Shown here: in pieces, positions 9,425-22,235 of the stretch
Numbering within the stretch: the first letter of the stretch is position 1
Layout of the letters: every line of letters begins with the position of its first letter
Source of the DNA: a virus
Length of the DNA stretch: 23,875 nt
Reading direction: 5' to 3' (one strand)
Virus record (IMG/VR): IMGVR_UViG_3300005068_000143
Coordinates: 1 to 23,875 of that record
The notes under the pieces: model-generated
Seen by the model: the letters and a program-made list of their open reading frames with translations, nothing else
What the model was told of the DNA's origin: nothing
Database searches by the model: none
Translations under genes and position numbers: made by a program

Positions 9425-9643
9425 GTGGATTTATGTGAAACAATAAAAAATATAAGACGAAAATGTCTTTTAAGTCAGACGGATTTTGCTCATGCATTAG
9501 GTGTTTCATTTTCTACAGTAAATCGTTGGGAAAATGGAAAAGCAATTCCCAATTATCAAGCATTGCAGAAAATAAAAGAATTCTGTAACATAAACAACTT
9601 GCCTTTTGATGTTGATAGAAAAGTTTGGGAGGAAAAAGAGTGA
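9425..9643 (+). CDS. XRE-family regulator paired with the DNA methyltransferase
   Basis: 72 residues, a single Cro/[29 protein letters not shown] (17-40), then P-N-Y-Q-A-L-Q-K-I. The GTG start is fixed by AGGAGGT seven bases upstream. The stop codon overlaps the GTG start of the methyltransferase (GTGA), so translation is coupled. It probably acts like a controller (C) protein, delaying or limiting expression of the restriction-modification genes and repressing its own promoter; the role is inferred from position. Confidence 0.8.
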
Positions 9644-10641
9644 AGATTATTAGTTTATTTAGTGGCTGCGGTGGTTTAGATTTAGGATTTGAACGGGCAG
9701 GATTTGAAATCCCTGTTGCTAATGATTTTGATAAAACTATTTGGAGTACCTACAAGGTTAATCATCCTAATACTAAGTTAATAGAGGGTGACATTCGTCA
9801 AGTTACCAAAGTTGATATGGAAAAATACTTAAACGGAGATGTTGACGGAATAATTGGAGGTCCTCCTTGTCAATCATGGTCAGAGGCAGGCTCTCTTAAA
9901 GGAATTAAGGATGAACGAGGTCAACTTTTCTTTGACTATATTAGAATATTAAAAGAGTTCAGACCGAAATTTTTTCTAGCAGAGAATGTAAGTGGCATGC
10001 TTGCGAATAGACATTCAGATGCAGTGCAAAACATTCTAAAAATGTTTGAAGATGCTGGGTATAATGTATCTTTAACAATGGTTAATGCTAAAGATTATGG
10101 TGTTGCACAAGAGCGAAAGAGAGTTTTCTATATAGGATTTAGAAAAGATTTAGATATCAAGTTTGATTTTCCAGAGGGGTCAACAGTTTCAGATGATAAG
10201 AAGATTACGCTTAGAGATATTATCTGGGATTTACAGGATACTGCAGTTCCTGCCGCAGATAAAAACAAGCATAATCCTAATGCAAAAAACAATAATGAAT
10301 TCTTTACAGGAGCTTTCTCGCCAATTTTTATGAGCCGAAATAGGGTAAAGTCTTGGGACGAGCAAGCTTATACCGTACAAGCCTCAGGAAGACAATGCCA
10401 GTTGCACCCGCAAGCACCGAAAATGGTAAAGGTAGGAAAGAATGACTGTAGATTTGTTGAAGGTAAAGAGTCACTGTATAGAAGAATGACAGTAAGAGAA
10501 ATTGCTAGAGTCCAAGGTTTCCCAGATGATTTTCAGTTTATATATACTGATGTTAATAATGCATACAAGATGATCGGTAATGCTGTTCCAGTTAATCTTG
10601 CTTATGAGATTGCAGTGGCAATTAAAGAAGTTCTTAAGTAA
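9640..10641 (+). CDS. dcm: C5-cytosine DNA methyltransferase (type II modification enzyme)
   Basis: 333 residues; transfers methyl from S-adenosylmethionine to C5 of cytosine. Motif [12 protein letters not shown] (7-17), motif [10 protein letters not shown] with catalytic Cys77, motif VI E-N-V (115-117), motif VIII Q-E-R-K-R (157-161), motif [12 protein letters not shown] and motif X I-G-N-A-V-P (312-317) are all present in order, so it should be active. The target-recognition region is short (~200-260), typical of small type II enzymes. The GTG at 9640 is preceded by GGAGG and overlaps the XRE stop. It converges on a nuclease-like gene across a shared terminator, which suggests the cognate restriction enzyme. 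The recognition sequence cannot be read from the protein. The gene symbol denotes the family only. Confidence 0.93.
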
Positions 10642-10643
10642 CT

Positions 10644-10686
10644 AAAAAAGATGGTGCCCAAGTTTTGATAGGCACCATCTTTTTTT
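10644..10686. terminator. bidirectional terminator between methyltransferase and nuclease
   Basis: AAAAAA, GATGGTGCC (10650-10658), 12-base loop, GGCACCATC (10671-10679), then TTTTTTT. The perfect 9-bp stem has A and T tracts on both sides, serving both convergent units. The T tract reaches the stop codon of the leftward nuclease gene. Confidence 0.9.
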
Positions 10687-11581
10687 AGCCAAATATTATA
10701 CTACTATTCTCTACATTATATGAATTTAAGTCATTTGTTGTTTCCACACCAAGAGTATCTAATGCGAATTTTAATCTTGCAAAAGCATAATTACCACCTT
10801 GCTTCAGGGGAGTATCGAAATGAAGATTATATGCCAATTTTCCTTCTCTTACAAACCAATCAACATAAACAGCGAGAGGTCTATTACCATCATATTTTTT
10901 CTTAAAAGTTCTATAGTTTAAGGCTTTACATGCAAAATATACATTGGGGTTTAATTCAACATAATCCTCTATGGTTATTAATGAATCAATTACCTGTTGG
11001 ACACTGCCAAATGCTTTATCTTCAAAAAGAATATAGTTTGAAATTCCACTGTTGGGAACTATTATACGATTAACTGTTGAGTCCTTTTTATCACCCACGA
11101 GATTAGTACCTGCATAAACATCAATAACTTGTTCTCTTGAGAGGTCTATGACACCGCTTAACTGACCGCTTAGGACGTTTAGAAGTTCAAACTTCCAGCC
11201 TAGTGTAATTGCTCCTGCATCAGTTCTTCCGAACTTTTCTCTATAAATTAACGGTCTTGAAAGAAAAGCATCCTTCATATTAGATGTTGCCATTGCGATA
11301 ATATTATCCCATTCGCTTCCAAGTAATTGTTCGGCGCGTTCTGCATTAGTTTTATTTTCTAGAAAATCAGCATTAATCTTTTTGAATGAAATCTTAAATT
11401 CTTTAATTGTATTAACGGAACTCTTTGCTGCTATATAAATATCTGTTTTTGGTTCACCTTTACTACAAGTGGGTTTACCAGAAACTGTAACAACATATTC
11501 AATGTCGTCAAATATAAAACGCGTTCCAATTTTAAACATATCGAGTATACGATGCTCAGCAGCACCAAATGTCATTGTCAA
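10685..11581 (-). CDS. PD-(D/E)XK-like restriction endonuclease (putative)
   Basis: 298 residues. S-K-G-E-P-K-T-D-I-Y-I (40-50) followed by E-F-K-I-S-F-K-K (61-68) gives the G-E-x-K-x-D ... (E/S)-x-K arrangement of PD-(D/E)XK nucleases, with Asp47 and Lys67 (or Glu61/Lys63) as probable metal-site residues. The central and C-terminal parts have no recognised domain, as is usual for type II restriction enzymes. The TTG start at 11581 is preferred because AGGAGG lies 8 bases upstream; an ATG two codons in would be 14 bases away. It is the last gene of the leftward five-gene unit, 30 bases after an HTH gene, and faces the C5 methyltransferase, so it is probably its restriction partner. Confidence 0.6.
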   Translation of the reverse strand: MTMTFGAAEHRILDMFKIGTRFIFDDIEYVVTVSGKPTCSKGEPKTDIYIAAKSSVNTIKEFKISFKKINADFLENKTNAERAEQLLGSEWDNIIAMATSNMKDAFLSRPLIYREKFGRTDAGAITLGWKFELLNVLSGQLSGVIDLSREQVIDVYAGTNLVGDKKDSTVNRIIVPNSGISNYILFEDKAFGSVQQVIDSLITIEDYVELNPNVYFACKALNYRTFKKKYDGNRPLAVYVDWFVREGKLAYNLHFDTPLKQGGNYAFARLKFALDTLGVETTNDLNSYNVENSSIIFG

Positions 11582-11611
11582 ACTCCATACCTCCTCTTAT
11601 CTTATTTTATT

Positions 11612-11833
11612 CTATAAAGTATTTTCATCATGAACAGTTTCTACAATGTCGTGTAAATCACAGTCCAATGCATTACATATTCTAATTAGCACATCAGTGT
11701 TAACATTCTGACCTTTGCCCAACTTAGCAATTGGAGCAGAGCTTAGACCTGTGATTTTTCTTAGATCCTGCTTAGTCATTCCTCTATCTATCAACAGTTT
11801 CCATAATCGGTTGTAGCTTAAACTGATACCCAT
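11612..11833 (-). CDS. HTH_26-type (Cro/CI) regulator
   Basis: 73 residues: S-Y-N-R-L-W-K-L-L-I-D-R-G-M-T-K-Q-D-L-R, S-S-A-P-I-A-K-L-G-K-G, L-I-R-I-C-N-A-L-D-C-D-L-H-D-I-V. This is the compact HTH_26 pattern often found beside type II restriction-modification genes in Firmicutes. AAGGAG 8 bases before the ATG at 11833 lies inside the end of the ATPase gene. It probably controls the nuclease gene downstream and perhaps the methyltransferase. Confidence 0.8.
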   Translation of the reverse strand: MGISLSYNRLWKLLIDRGMTKQDLRKITGLSSAPIAKLGKGQNVNTDVLIRICNALDCDLHDIVETVHDENTL

Positions 11834-11838
11834 AATTC

Positions 11839-13476
11839 TCACTCCTTGATATTCCATGAGCGTCCAAATAGTTCATCACCGTTTTCGTTTAGGCGAATGA
11901 CAGCGGTATTATTAAGAATCTGGCTAGTTTCCTCTGAGTAAGATTCATCTTTGTCAAAAGCTATGAATATTTGTTTGTCAAACTCTGTGTATAGTTGAAT
12001 TATCTTATTGAGCGGTTCATCGCCAATGTTTTTAAATAGAAGTGAATCATGTGCCAGTGCAGGTAACATAGTCGTTTCTAAAACACTCAGGTCAAATACA
12101 ATAAGACTCTTATATGAAGTTCCTGTACCACTATCATCAGGTGTATAGAATTCATAAGTTGTACCACTGTCTAAATCTAGCACAGGAGCTTTTCTTTTTT
12201 TCTCGTAGATTCTATCGTTAAAACGGACCATTTGCTCATTGATGCTGCTCTCAATCCTACGCAATTCAGCTTCTTCAACTTTCTGAAGTTGTTCTTTGAC
12301 ACCCTTCTTTGAAACATTTAATTCCTCAACCAAAATATAATCTCGGTTTTGTGCTTCAAGTCTTTCTATAGCAAGATTTAACTCTTTGTATTTATTCAGG
12401 TAAGTAGTTGAATAGTTTGCTGGCTCTCCATGCTTAGAAAGCTGATTTTTCAGGCTCTCAATTTCATGGTTTAATCGTTCAAGATTTTTGCTCAACTCTT
12501 TTCTCTGTTGCTCATATTCAGCCATCAGTATTTCACTTAATTTTTCATGGAAAGATTCAATTTCAGATAGTTTGCGAATATTAACCCTGGGAAAGAACTG
12601 CTCTAACTCTTCATAAGGACCATGATGAACTTCCGGATTTGAAGAGAGATTGTCCTCAACAAGACTTAACTGTGTTTTAGTTGATGTTCTGTTTCTCAGC
12701 AAAATGTTTAATTGAGTCTTGATTTGACTTATCTGATCTGCCTGTTTCAAATCAAGGTCTACATAATTGGTGTTATTAGAGACAGTGTGATCTCTCAAGT
12801 CATCTTTGAGTTTTTCTAACTCATTAAGATTTTCGTTATAACGCTTCTTTGTTGTGATAGAGCCGTACGAGATAACATCTTGTTTCTTTGCTTTCTTGAG
12901 GGCATCAAGTTTGTCAGATACTTTTTTAAATTCTGTTCTATATGACTCAATAACCTCAAAAGAGTTAAATAACTTTTCTAATGCAGTAATTGCGGCTACA
13001 TTTTTTTCTCTTGGATCACTATGTAGGGGTTTCTTTTCGTCATGGTTGTTCTTTCCATAGATTCTAAAGTAGCGACTAATTAGCTCTCTAAATGAACTTC
13101 CATAAAAATCAACTCCATACTGTTCTTGTAAAAAAGACAAAAAGTCCTTAATGTTAATTTCCTCAATAAAATTAAATTGCTCATCGCATTTATTAATTGT
13201 AGTTCTCTGCGTGGTACTTCTAGAAAAAAAGTAAGATGTACCACTGAACTCAAATTCAAAATTAATTGTATGAAGTCCCACTTGGTTTACAGCATCGCTA
13301 TCAAGGTAGGAGTTTCCGCCGTATGCAAAGTCAATAATAAGTAGCAAAGTTGATTTGCCGATGGAGTTATTAGCATTCACACCTCCAAGAATCGTATTAA
13401 GCCCTTTCTTAAACTCTATTGGTGGACGCACTTGCCCTTTGGAAATAAATTTATCGCACTGAATCTTCTTCAACAT
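11839..13476 (-). CDS. DUF2326-type SMC-like ATPase (ABC-3C system ATPase)
   Basis: 545 residues from ATG 13476; an in-frame TTG at 13482 has slightly better ribosome-site spacing. Numbered from the TTG, the N-terminus carries the P-loop G-G-V-N-A-N-N-S-I-G-K-S-T (33-45) followed by L-L-L-I-I-D-F-A-Y-G-G, the form seen in ABC-three-component ATPases. A long charged region (~170-440), rich in Leu/Glu/Lys heptads, should be the SMC/Rad50-like coiled coil. The C-terminus has L-A-H-D-S-L-L-F (476-483) and Q-I-F-I-A-F-D-K-D-E (504-513), which I recognise as the DUF2326 signature and Walker B-like strand. Its start overlaps the small middle-component gene by 26 bases. Its likely role is a DNA- or invader-sensing ATPase that licenses the effector. 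Confidence 0.78.
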   Translation of the reverse strand: MLKKIQCDKFISKGQVRPPIEFKKGLNTILGGVNANNSIGKSTLLLIIDFAYGGNSYLDSDAVNQVGLHTINFEFEFSGTSYFFSRSTTQRTTINKCDEQFNFIEEINIKDFLSFLQEQYGVDFYGSSFRELISRYFRIYGKNNHDEKKPLHSDPREKNVAAITALEKLFNSFEVIESYRTEFKKVSDKLDALKKAKKQDVISYGSITTKKRYNENLNELEKLKDDLRDHTVSNNTNYVDLDLKQADQISQIKTQLNILLRNRTSTKTQLSLVEDNLSSNPEVHHGPYEELEQFFPRVNIRKLSEIESFHEKLSEILMAEYEQQRKELSKNLERLNHEIESLKNQLSKHGEPANYSTTYLNKYKELNLAIERLEAQNRDYILVEELNVSKKGVKEQLQKVEEAELRRIESSINEQMVRFNDRIYEKKRKAPVLDLDSGTTYEFYTPDDSGTGTSYKSLIVFDLSVLETTMLPALAHDSLLFKNIGDEPLNKIIQLYTEFDKQIFIAFDKDESYSEETSQILNNTAVIRLNENGDELFGRSWNIKE

Positions 13477-13693
13477 AGACAATCACGCCCCTTTCTTCAT
13501 CGAGTTCGATTTTTCTTAATGCATAAAGACAGCATAACGTTTCTGTATAATCTTCTATATCTAAAAACAGACTTTTGTTTGTGTTATATAATTCCTCTAC
13601 CGAGTAAGGTCTATTATTCAAGCATTTTATAAGTACTGGAAATTTAGCCAGGGTACTTTCTTTATAGCTAAACAGTTTGTTTGGAAGGAGCAT
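13451..13693 (-). CDS. ABC-three-component system middle component (putative)
   Basis: 80 residues from the ATG at 13693, which has GAGGT just upstream and overlaps the end of the preceding gene by 26 bases. The sequence L-L-P-N-K-L-F-S-Y-K-E-S, then a winged-helix-like pattern (L-I-K-C-L-N, S-V-E-E-L-Y, C-C-L-Y-A-L-R-K-I-E-L-D) resembles the small middle components (MC6-8 type) between effector and ATPase in ABC-3C operons. Such proteins are thought to bridge the two. The family call rests mainly on position and on the L-L-P-x-K opening and L-x-x-I-x-L-D ending. Confidence 0.6.
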   Translation of the reverse strand: MLLPNKLFSYKESTLAKFPVLIKCLNNRPYSVEELYNTNKSLFLDIEDYTETLCCLYALRKIELDEERGVIVYVEEDSVR

Positions 13694-14789
13694 CAAATAC
13701 CTCACATTTCTGTACAAAAAACGAAATAACTATCTCACAGGCTACTCTAGATTTGTTTGTGATGCCCATCAGCCACTCAACGAGGGAGTTATAGATTTCG
13801 TCTTGTATACTTGTTTTTTCTAATGCTGTGACATACGCAAGCCTTATTTGCGAAGATAGCACATCATAATTCATCTTTTTTTCTCTAGATAAAGATTTAA
13901 ACTGTGTTTCAATAAACGGATAATACTGAGTCACATTAAAAATATTAGTTCTTAACAAGAGGTAATTATTCTTGTAAATCTTATCTCTTACAGATTGAGG
14001 TTCATAATTTAACTTGGTGATTTCATTCGGATCGGTTACATAAAGAACTTCCAAAACTTCCGATATCGCTTTTTCAACTTTTATATCCGTAAGTGACTTC
14101 TGAGCTAATAAATGTTCATACATAGATATCTTTAAATCCTGCAATTCGATTTGATCTTCTTCTGTATGAGATAGTAAATATTTTGCTGCACATTCTGGAC
14201 AAAGAGCAATTAAATTTTCGCTATGCTCTCCACTTTTACTATCTATCATAATCACGTCAAAATATGCTTGTGTTGCTTCGTTGTTACTCAATAAGAGTGG
14301 CTTACCACACCCTTTAAAAGGGCAATTTCCTTTATTTTCTACTAATAATTGATTTCCATATCTATGTCTTAAATAGTACTTTGAAGGCATTAAGGACTTT
14401 TGCATATCAGTGTTTTCACCAGCAGCTTTATAAAGAATATCTAAGAAAAGTTTTCCTGCTATTGTTCCAACTATATCAGGGGTAACTGTTGGATCGTACT
14501 TTTTGAAGTCATCTGACAATCTTTCAATGACAACCTCATCATTTGAATTCACCGAATCAACAAAATTTTGAAATTCAATCTCTGCGATTATTCCTCTAGC
14601 ATATTCAGGAGACAGAGGTCTTTTTCCATTTGCATAAGATTTCAAAGTGTCGTCTGACTGATCTTGAGAAGGGTCAACATCGCTATCAGTTTTAGTAATC
14701 ATAGCTATTAGGTTTCGCACCAACTTAGCATTTGCTCTTTCTTTACCTAGTACAGGTTTCATTAGATTGAAGAAATCATTAAATTCCAT
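13668..14789 (-). CDS. ABC-three-component effector-like protein with Cys4 zinc-knuckle/HNH-like core
   Basis: 373 residues from the ATG at 14789, with AAAGGAG 8 bases upstream. Residues ~150-205 contain C-P-F-K-G-C (156-161) and L-C-P-E-C (196-200), with A-Y-F-D-V-I-M-I between and N-L-I-A-L just before the second pair. This is the layout of an HNH/treble-clef fold, but the usual HH of the first strand is replaced by F-D, so nuclease activity is doubtful. The C-terminal ~150 residues are helical and end V-S-F-F-V-Q-K-C-E-V-F (from I-V-I-S-F-F), which I associate with the C-terminal domain common to ABC-3C effectors. It is the first gene of the leftward operon. Confidence 0.62.
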   Translation of the reverse strand: MEFNDFFNLMKPVLGKERANAKLVRNLIAMITKTDSDVDPSQDQSDDTLKSYANGKRPLSPEYARGIIAEIEFQNFVDSVNSNDEVVIERLSDDFKKYDPTVTPDIVGTIAGKLFLDILYKAAGENTDMQKSLMPSKYYLRHRYGNQLLVENKGNCPFKGCGKPLLLSNNEATQAYFDVIMIDSKSGEHSENLIALCPECAAKYLLSHTEEDQIELQDLKISMYEHLLAQKSLTDIKVEKAISEVLEVLYVTDPNEITKLNYEPQSVRDKIYKNNYLLLRTNIFNVTQYYPFIETQFKSLSREKKMNYDVLSSQIRLAYVTALEKTSIQDEIYNSLVEWLMGITNKSRVACEIVISFFVQKCEVFDAPSKQTV

Positions 14790-14827
14790 TACGTTAACTC
14801 CTTTCAAGATAGTTGTCCCACTTTGTA

Positions 14828-14872
14828 CCCACCTTCGACCTGGAACGTACCCAGTTCGAAAGGTGGGTTTTT
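14828..14872 (+). terminator. long hairpin with rightward T tract
   Basis: CCCACCTTCGA (14828-14838) pairs with TCGAAAGGTGGG (14856-14867, one bulge), an inner CTGG/CCAG extends it, and TTTTT follows. It reads as a rightward terminator although no rightward gene precedes it. In the leftward direction it would sit in the 5' leader of the ABC-3C operon. Confidence 0.55.
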
Positions 14873-15012: not shown

Positions 15013-15156
15013 ATGGCCAAACGTAATTCGAAGCAAACATCTAAAAGAGTTGCATCAAAAGCAAGCAAAATTCTTAGTGATGGGCGTTACAGCAAGAAAG
15101 CCAAGTCTGTGGCTGGCAGTGCTTTAAGTCAAACAAGACCAAGCAAGAAAAAGTAA
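15013..15156 (+). CDS. 47-residue basic Lys/Ser/Ala-rich protein
   Basis: Starts M-A-K-R-N-S-K-Q-T-S-K-R-V-A-S-K-A-S-K, continues with I-L-S-D-G-R-Y-S-K-K-A-K-S and ends A-G-S-A-L-S-Q-T-R-P-S-K-K-K. AAAGGAGGG lies 8 bases before the ATG. Two related S-K-x(A/S)-S-K segments suggest an internal duplication. I recall similar small proteins in phages and genomic islands of many bacteria, but no function. The strong positive charge and lack of hydrophobic core suggest nucleic-acid binding or a ribosome/nucleoid-associated role. It stands alone between the defence locus and the phage genes. Confidence 0.7.
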   Translation: MAKRNSKQTSKRVASKASKILSDGRYSKKAKSVAGSALSQTRPSKKK

Positions 15157-15170
15157 TTTTTAGAACAAAT

Positions 15171-15418
15171 GATAGGTAGAGACAGATTTGAATAATCAGC
15201 CTACCTATCCTCCCTAAGGGAGAAATCTATCCAGAGCGGTTATCGCTCAACAAAATCAATCTCAAAGTCCTAGTGCGCATACGGACGGCGGGATGCATAA
15301 GAGTTCAGAACACAGTGATAAAGACTGTGTTTGGAATGAAGATGCACCCACCGTTATTTCGTGTGCCCTTTTTTAGGACAAGCGGAGTCTGTGGTCATCT
15401 TCACCGCAGGCTCTTTTT
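15171..15418 (+). ncRNA. candidate structured RNA / leader upstream of the sigma-like gene
   Basis: Successive hairpins with no gene: GATAGGTAG/CTACCTATC (15171-15179, 15201-15209); CTCCC/GGGAG (15210-15222); GAGCG/CGCTC (15234-15248); a long two-part stem pairing 15285-15298 with 15342-15354 (13 pairs, one bulge, one mismatch) enclosing AACACAGT/ACTGTGTT (15309-15331); and a terminator-like stem GAGTCTGTGGT/ACCGCAGGCTC (15385-15395, 15403-15413) with TTTTT to 15418. It resembles a small RNA with its own terminator, or an attenuated leader. I cannot match it to a named RNA family. Confidence 0.5.
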
Positions 15419-15421
15419 GTA

Positions 15422-15452
15422 TTCCGCCGCCCAATTCCTAGGCGGAAAGGAA
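15422..15452 (+). promoter_or_regulatory. hairpin touching the ribosome site of the sigma-like gene
   Basis: TTCCGCC (15422-15428) pairs perfectly with GGCGGAA (15441-15447); AAAGGAA (15446-15452) is the ribosome site for the ATG at 15459. The stem takes up the first bases of the ribosome site and could tune initiation. Confidence 0.4.
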
Positions 15453-15458
15453 TACTTT

Positions 15459-16001
15459 ATGAAGATTCGAGTTTTATATGAAGATCAAATCAAAAACGGT
15501 CACAAGAACTACACCACAATTGAAATTCCAGATGGAGATTACAGCGTCATGCTGGATATCGACTATGAGCAACGTCTTGCAGAAGCAAAGCCTGAAAAGA
15601 AATCGGAAGTGAAACGCTGCGAGACTCTACAAGAAATGTTCGACCTCATGAACAACAAGGAATACAACCATTGGCGCCGATACCATAGGCATCTTGGTAA
15701 TCCCAAGACACTTTATCGAAAAGATGATGAAGTTGAAATAGATGTCATGGATACTTTCGCTGATAACTCTCAGGAGATAGAACGCAATCACCAAGATGAG
15801 TATGAGTCTGTCTGCTCATGGATACGCACCGCTCTTGGTAAAAAGCAGGATTGGGCAGATATGTTCATTGCAGTACGCATTGACGGTATGTCGATTCGAG
15901 AATATGCCAGCTCCATCGGAGTTAATGAAAACAACATTACTCAGAAATTAAAGCGGGCCACAAAGAAATTAGAACAAGAATATAAAAACCGTCAGATTTG
16001 A
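15459..16001 (+). CDS. phage sigma-70-like factor (region 4 HTH)
   Basis: 180 residues. The ATG at 15459 is chosen over in-frame upstream codons because those lie in the structured leader and AAAGGAA is 6 bases upstream. The N-terminal third (M-K-I-R-V-L-Y-E-D-Q, I-P-D-G-D-Y-S-V-M-L) is a conserved head of this Clostridia phage family. The middle has H-W-R-R-Y-H-R-H-L, and the C-terminus is a sigma region 4-type HTH: W-A-D-M-F-I-A-V-R-I-D-G-M-S-I-R-E-Y-A, G-V-N-E-N-N-I-T-Q-K-L-K-R-A-T-K-K-L. It probably redirects RNA polymerase to phage promoters or regulates early genes. It is the first gene of the phage unit. Confidence 0.72.
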   Translation: MKIRVLYEDQIKNGHKNYTTIEIPDGDYSVMLDIDYEQRLAEAKPEKKSEVKRCETLQEMFDLMNNKEYNHWRRYHRHLGNPKTLYRKDDEVEIDVMDTFADNSQEIERNHQDEYESVCSWIRTALGKKQDWADMFIAVRIDGMSIREYASSIGVNENNITQKLKRATKKLEQEYKNRQI

Positions 16002-22143: not shown

Positions 22144-22218
22144 GCAGAGATAAGCACCTCATCTTTATGTTACATTATAATCAGCAAGATAGAATACTTA
22201 CCAAGCCTTGTGGGATGC

Positions 22219-22235
22219 GCCCTGCAGGGCTTTTT
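22219..22235 (+). terminator. short hairpin with T tract before the HNH gene
   Basis: GCCC TGCA GGGC (22219-22230) followed by TTTTT (22231-22235). AAGCC at 22203-22207 can pair instead with GGCTT at 22228-22232. It would end the early operon ahead of the packaging genes. Confidence 0.5.

Follow-up and report, generated by a model that had tools for sequence, protein, structure and literature searches.

A conserved leader RNA with alternative pairings directly upstream of the first early gene in temperate phages of Bacillota

Locus organization

The window analyzed here, the whole 23,875-nt stretch of IMG/VR record IMGVR_UViG_3300005068_000143, carries an early phage operon whose first gene (15459-16001, plus strand, as are all leader features described below) encodes a sigma-70 region-4-like protein of 180 aa, with a Pfam Sigma70_r4_2 match (E 2.6e-5) slightly under the cut-off and matches to phrog_11138 and phrog_1740. 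The order of the operon is sigma-like gene, antirepressor Ant, nucleoside deoxyribosyltransferase-like gene, VapE-type primase/helicase, endonuclease, helicase, transcriptional regulator, HNH and small terminase. A strong terminator-like hairpin at 22203-22232 (12 pairs followed by TTTCT) lies between the transcriptional-regulator gene and the HNH/terminase genes and possibly marks the early/late boundary.

On its left, the early operon is adjoined by a region (9625-14807) encoding a type II cytosine methyltransferase (PADLOC MTase_II, E 3e-123) and a restriction enzyme (REase_II, E 2e-50), together with an ABC-3C/Lamassu-like pair of CTD11 and DUF2326 proteins (PADLOC LmuA, E 2e-17; PDC-M68B). 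Relatives carry other genes at this position, for instance a type IIS endonuclease and a RecD-like helicase in phi1605 and an ATPase in Javan630, which suggests a cargo hotspot. Just upstream of this minus-strand defence operon, an inverted repeat, CCCACCTTCGA...TTCGAAAGGTGGG, is followed by a T-run (14826-14871) and is either a terminator for rightward transcription or a leader hairpin.

Between the defence genes and the sigma-like gene, we identified a 47-aa basic ORF, MAKRNSKQTSKRVASKASK (MAKRNSKQTSK..., 15013-15156, plus strand, phrog_5079), then the hairpins of this small-gene cassette (15171-15222), a variable hairpin, GAGCGGUUAUCGCUC (15234-15248), the place of which is taken in many loci by a hairpin of unrelated sequence, and a conserved leader RNA core (15255-15458) that abuts the ATG of the sigma-like gene.

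A structured RNA conserved between phages

The initial annotation had described 15171-15458 as free of genes and far more heavily paired than an ordinary intergenic region, and both statements hold. The plus strand folds at -117.7 kcal/mol, compared with -72.9 +/- 5.1 for 200 dinucleotide shuffles (z -8.8), none of which reached the native value; the minus strand gives z -6.0. All the hairpins named previously are present (15171-15209, 15210-15222, 15234-15248, a long arm at 15267-15379, 15384-15414 and 15419-15455), and there is no conserved reading frame inside. A leader peptide or uORF was considered and rejected: indels in relatives interrupt the ORF that starts with MHKSSE in the window, and none of the frames consistently stays open. 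Public annotations place hypothetical proteins of 41-49 aa over the leader RNA in three loci (L074, L171 and L172), which look spurious, and the short ORFs annotated over the RNA in phages NatCom_28274, 2329 and 38182 were judged spurious.

In the aligned DNA upstream of the sigma-like gene, conservation is sharply bounded, extending from ATCTCAA(A/T)GTCC (~15255) to the ATG at 15459, and the sequence 5' of ~15255 differs from locus to locus. The 47-aa ORF lies directly 5' of the leader in many, not all, relatives, and its cassette has its own conserved, covarying 3' hairpin (15171-15209). Because the hairpins at 15171-15222 travel with this cassette, being kept where the ORF is present and absent elsewhere, 15171-15458 joins two things, the 3' region of the small-gene cassette and the leader proper. 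Thus, of the segment first delineated, 15255-15458 is the element conserved across phages, whereas 15171-15254 is variable. The core is more than a chance fold, given that it is conserved between loci with different upstream and downstream genes.

The stretch is therefore a real structured RNA of ~200 nt that was previously uncatalogued. ARAGORN detected no tRNA or tmRNA, and Rfam 15 yielded no matches at gathering thresholds for the window or for 14 distant loci; at E<=10, the best match was a chance hit to a lncRNA at 7.8 bits. A role as a packaging or defence decoy, also raised initially, has no support, as no link was seen between the RNA and packaging genes or any known defence RNA. Our search of PMC full text found no paper on the leader RNA; PMC8040213 refers to 28 candidate RNAs, given in its supplement, that lie near integrase, sortase or phage domains, and an earlier computational sighting is therefore possible.

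Distribution and gene context

Relatives were fetched with the sigma-like protein (33 viral and 37 genomic, plus the annotated phages Javan630, phi1605 and NatCom_38182), and 48 distinct copies form alignment A1 and the covariance model R1, with 204 positions. Searching for homologues with this model, as had been proposed for phages of Clostridia, recovered ~110 distinct RNAs with hits over 1-204/204; the prophages that carry them belong to Clostridia, Negativicutes, Bacilli and Erysipelotrichia. By group, the genomes with an R1 match numbered 15 of 391 for Clostridia, 18 of 200 for Negativicutes, 4 of 398 for Bacilli and 11 of 398 for a phylum sample. It also found the RNA in divergent families in which the protein match began only at residue 57, in further IMG/VR contigs, and in four more annotated phages, in each of which the match ends at the start codon.

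The leader is almost always located directly 5' of the first gene of the early operon, and in 113 copies no more than a few bases separate its 3' end from the start codon. This gene mostly encodes a sigma-70-region-4-like protein, from several unrelated families, and once Rha. In locus L182, an RNA close to that of the window (192 bits) precedes a different protein family. The leader therefore behaves as a module whose downstream gene can be exchanged. A scheme in which a single sigma-like protein regulates its own synthesis through the RNA was considered and is unlikely, because the RNA also precedes unrelated proteins and, in L182, a different family.

Two irregular arrangements were observed among the relatives. 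In L029, L058-L064 and L187, the C-terminal half of the first gene product is near the protein of the window, with an N-terminal half and a leader of another class (palindrome GCUGGCCAGC), a pattern that reads as mosaic recombination within the gene. In L114, the leader is followed by the first ~44 sigma-like codons fused in frame to an apparent transketolase/DXS-type protein, and this locus is either a rearranged prophage remnant or an assembly error.

Default fold

The RNAalifold consensus of A1 comprises hairpin A, P2, P3, T and an SD hairpin. Hairpin A (15267-15286) has an outer stem GUCC/GGAC that is invariant in A1, with weak covariation support (z -2.8), and, in the window, the palindromic loop UGCGCA (15274-15279). 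Its 3' strand continues into the 5' strand of P2, and the two together constitute strand S (15283-15301), which pairs in P2 with 15341-15356, within the P2 3' strand (15337-15356). The apical hairpin P3 (15303-15337) is variable in sequence and conserved in pairing, with both-side changes in 9 of 12 pairs. Downstream of P2 lie motif M, CGUGUGCCCUUUUUUAGGAC (15360-15379), and T, an intrinsic-terminator-like hairpin with a U-run (15384-15418); its stem of 12 bp covaries in A1, and 15384-15414 tops the regional list of terminator-like sites. The SD hairpin GUAUUCC...GGAAUAC (15419-15455), in which 3 of 7 pairs are changed on both sides, pairs the anti-SD strand (15414-15432, including the U-run) with the strand that contains the Shine-Dalgarno sequence (15446-15451). 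Among 24 lineage representatives, T is clear in only 16, whereas nearly all have the SD hairpin.

Compensatory changes, the feature by which homologues were to decide whether the fold is genuine, support it. Both-side changes occur in 16 of the 41 pairs of the default fold (68 cells, compared with 13.8 +/- 3.1 in shuffles), and 97.3% of A1 cells are paired, compared with 37-47% when the strands are slid; the P1, K and X helices described below are likewise kept by such changes. Minimum-free-energy folding of growing prefixes of the window produces A, P3, P2 (which displaces A), P1, T and the SD hairpin, in this order.

Alternative helices

On reading diverse copies, we identified three further complementarities. 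P1 pairs the 5' half of A with motif M (15267-15273 with 15373-15379 in the window; AUGCCUGAGA/UUUUCAGGCAU in L183) and is a competitor of hairpin A. K pairs the P2 3' strand with the T loop and the 5' side of T; in the window, the 5' part of the P2 3' strand, UGAAGAUG (15337-15344), pairs with 15396-15403, and examples from other copies are GACGAUG/CAUCGUC, GAAGUAC/GUACUUC and GAGAUAC/GUAUCUC. In X, S (of which the A 3' strand is part) pairs with the anti-SD strand and its U-run (15414-15432), as in GGCAAAGGAUACA/UGUAUCCUUUGCC, GGACAGAUUGAAACAAA/UUUGUUUCCUUCUGUCC and GAGGACGAUGGGAUGC/GCAUCCCUUCGUCCUC.

For each helix, complementarity with the sequence's own partner was compared with that for partners from other sequences, using RNAduplex energies, 5000 permutations and 24 representatives under ~80% identity. 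Under this permutation null, which leaves part of the relatedness in place, own partners were favored for P1 (-9.7 vs -7.1 permuted, z -5.6), P2 (z -7.2), K (z -7.0), X (-28.1 vs -19.8 permuted, z -8.4, part of which could stem from the resemblance of S to the SD strand) and the SD hairpin (z -6.8). Versions with ungapped scoring agree. Among the control strand combinations, |z| was <= 1.6 in five of six; the exception, S paired with the T-loop window (z -3.4), shares sequence with the X strand. The A5 and SD strand combination gives z -4.1, which can arise indirectly from A, X and SD. In A1, 97.3% of the cells of X are paired over 17 positions, with a predominance of G-C/G-U exchange, as expected for RNA. 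The helices were defined on part of the data later used for testing, and five copies found later were held out: the palindrome and X are kept in all five, and P1 and K also in the divergent L183 and L184. In L187, of the GCUGGCCAGC class, only the palindrome and X are kept, and K and P1 are weak in this class (L029, L187). Pairing of the A loop with the GUGCGC that precedes the U-run, as a pseudoknot, was tried and rejected; it fails in lineages with GGCC loops and was replaced by P1 with M.

X occupies the 3' strand of A, the 5' strand of P2 and the anti-SD strand with the U-run, and is thus incompatible with A, P2 and the SD hairpin; where X is extended, the 3' end of T is excluded too. K engages the P2 3' strand together with the T loop and some of the 5' side of T, and P1 and A are mutually exclusive. 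The sets P1+P2+T+SD and X+K each account for most strands. Hence, the leader has two mutually exclusive folds, each with covariation, measured against a null that leaves some relatedness, and the compensatory changes appear to support two incompatible pairings, one in which the SD would be hidden and another in which it would be freed.

In model energies, which contain neither tertiary contacts nor proteins, enforcing X places the fold a median of 10.5 kcal/mol (0.3-24) above the free ensemble and increases the openness of the SD in 91 of 113 copies. For the window, the X fold lies 19 kcal/mol above the default and SD openness goes from 0.50 to 0.31; given this cost, and an SD that X alone does not open, the alternative fold of the window would need help.

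The architecture, with conserved internal-loop and motif nucleotides, mutually exclusive helices, a terminator and an SD hairpin, would also fit a metabolite-binding riboswitch, in which P1-P2-P3 with motif M would be the aptamer and K, T and the SD hairpin the expression platform. However, no known class matches and the downstream genes are regulators, not metabolic genes or transporters, and we regard this possibility as quite unlikely.

Self-complementary loop of hairpin A

All credible copies have a self-complementary stretch of 6-14 nt at the center of hairpin A; shuffles reach the lower end of this range, 6 nt, in 15% of cases. The palindrome centers take six forms (GCGC, UGCA, GGCC, AGCU, CGCG and UCGA, the last in the held-out L184), and the palindrome of L174 is GUAGGCCUAC. 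A loop that varies and yet remains palindromic suggests loop-loop dimerization; beyond pairing between molecules or a read-out of the palindrome, there is no obvious reason for self-complementarity to survive such changes.

A read-out at the level of DNA might be envisaged, since the DNA of hairpin A is palindromic and that of S and the anti-SD strand likewise forms an inverted repeat; the locus would then be an operator or recombination site, with RNA pairing incidental. Yet partner changes are often G-U wobbles, which are meaningless in DNA, and P3 and the SD hairpin covary as RNA stems. Furthermore, the internal loops flanking A are asymmetric, which favors an RNA rather than a DNA operator, and we consider a DNA site highly improbable.

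The universal loop palindrome would equally suit a trans-acting phage small RNA of ~165 nt that ends at T and dimerizes via the loop, the first gene being reached by read-through only. The discrete phage RNA raised in the initial annotation stands to the extent that the stem and U-run of T could end such a transcript, and T is a good terminator in the 16 lineages mentioned above. Nevertheless, T is absent in several lineages, the conserved pairing runs on through the SD, the hairpin of which nearly all lineages have, to the ATG, and a conserved promoter directly 5' of the core was not found. A small RNA acting in trans is thus rather unlikely.

Proposed mechanism

The structured 5' leader lies directly before a gene and is conserved by compensatory change. 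We consider it probable (roughly 60%) that the element is a cis-acting bistable leader RNA controlling the first early-operon gene, a small sigma-like or HTH regulator, and possibly also transcription into the operon. The earlier suggestion of a riboregulator of the early operon is supported by the compensatory changes that keep the helices in homologues and by an RNA that runs right up to the start codon of the operon's first gene. Comparative sequence analysis shows which helices are kept, that their strands exclude one another, that the loop is a palindrome, and where the RNA lies relative to the start codon. We infer from these patterns that both folds would occur in the cell and that X would mean 'on'.

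In the default fold, the 5' strand of A would pair with motif M (P1) and S with the P2 3' strand (P2); T would form and could stop transcription, and the anti-SD strand would cover the Shine-Dalgarno. The alternative fold would contain X, in which S takes up the anti-SD strand and its U-run, and K, in which the T loop and the 5' side of T are bound by the P2 3' strand; T would thereby be disrupted and the SD strand released. Hairpin A could form first during transcription and would compete with P1, which makes it a plausible control point, where control might be exerted via loop-loop dimerization or protein binding. We rank translation of the first early gene as the primary target and read-through via K versus T second, given that the start-codon abutment, the SD hairpin and X are constant, unlike a clear T. 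Of the two alternative helices, only K could influence termination at T, since the anti-SD strand needed for X is made after T.

A more speculative and unlikely extension of the bistable leader is that a kissing dimer of two nascent or free leaders, formed via the A loop, would stabilize A over P1 and tip the RNA to the X/K fold. By RNA alone, the phage would thereby sense how many copies of its transcript or genome are present, whether from the multiplicity of infection or from replication after induction, before translating its first early regulator.

Comparison with known systems

With this leader, an uncatalogued family of structured RNAs is added to the early control region of many temperate phages of Bacillota, the gut 'Ca. 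Heliusvirales' phages among them. As the fold is kept while the governed gene swaps between unrelated regulators, the leader may be a general RNA gate on the lytic program in a large phage group.

A processive antitermination RNA of the put, EAR or canT type, which would ride with RNA polymerase past T and later early-operon terminators, would likewise fit the position of the leader at the start of a long early operon and upstream of varied first genes. A complex structured RNA is indeed followed by a terminator, with the other terminator-like site at 22203-22232, and there are precedents in HK022 put (PMC9378689) and Tn916 canT (PMC11658703). HK022 put, an element of ~70 nt with two stem-loops that acts on RNA polymerase (PMC9378689), shares with the phage leader its occurrence at the start of phage early transcripts. 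By contrast, the leader is an element of ~204 nt with A/P1, P2, P3, T and SD helices in place of the put architecture, abuts a start codon, and has alternative pairings that reach the SD. Tn916 canT and the leader have in common that they are cis-acting RNAs of Gram-positive mobile elements, found where termination and antitermination are at play; canT lies upstream of xis, with active sequences tested at 341-452 nt (PMC11658703), whereas the leader sits against the start codon of an early regulator. R1 showed no similarity to the orf8-xis excisionase region expected to hold canT (<= 5.3 bits, E >= 0.8, in four Tn916-type Xis loci with filters off). The window has no strong terminator between 15459 and 22200. 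The SD hairpin and X are the most constant parts of the leader, the end of which keeps a fixed position at the start codon, whereas 8 of the 24 lineages have a weak T or none. We therefore consider antitermination unlikely and favor the bistable leader.

The closest architectural parallels of such a leader are the 5' leaders of riboswitches and attenuators, which are likewise long and structured and combine helices that exclude one another with a terminator-like hairpin and a Shine-Dalgarno that is sequestered beside the start codon. The phage leader differs from these in being without an Rfam family or known ligand, in preceding phage regulators of several unrelated families, and in its strictly self-complementary A loop.

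For this loop, the counterpart is the dimerization initiation site of retroviruses, a palindromic hairpin loop that varies in sequence and keeps its self-complementarity. Hairpin A resembles these sites in that the palindrome is kept through sequence change; it differs in lying in the operon leader of a DNA phage, where dimerization is predicted only. A self-complementary loop kept through six core sequences provides a directly testable prediction of RNA-RNA recognition.
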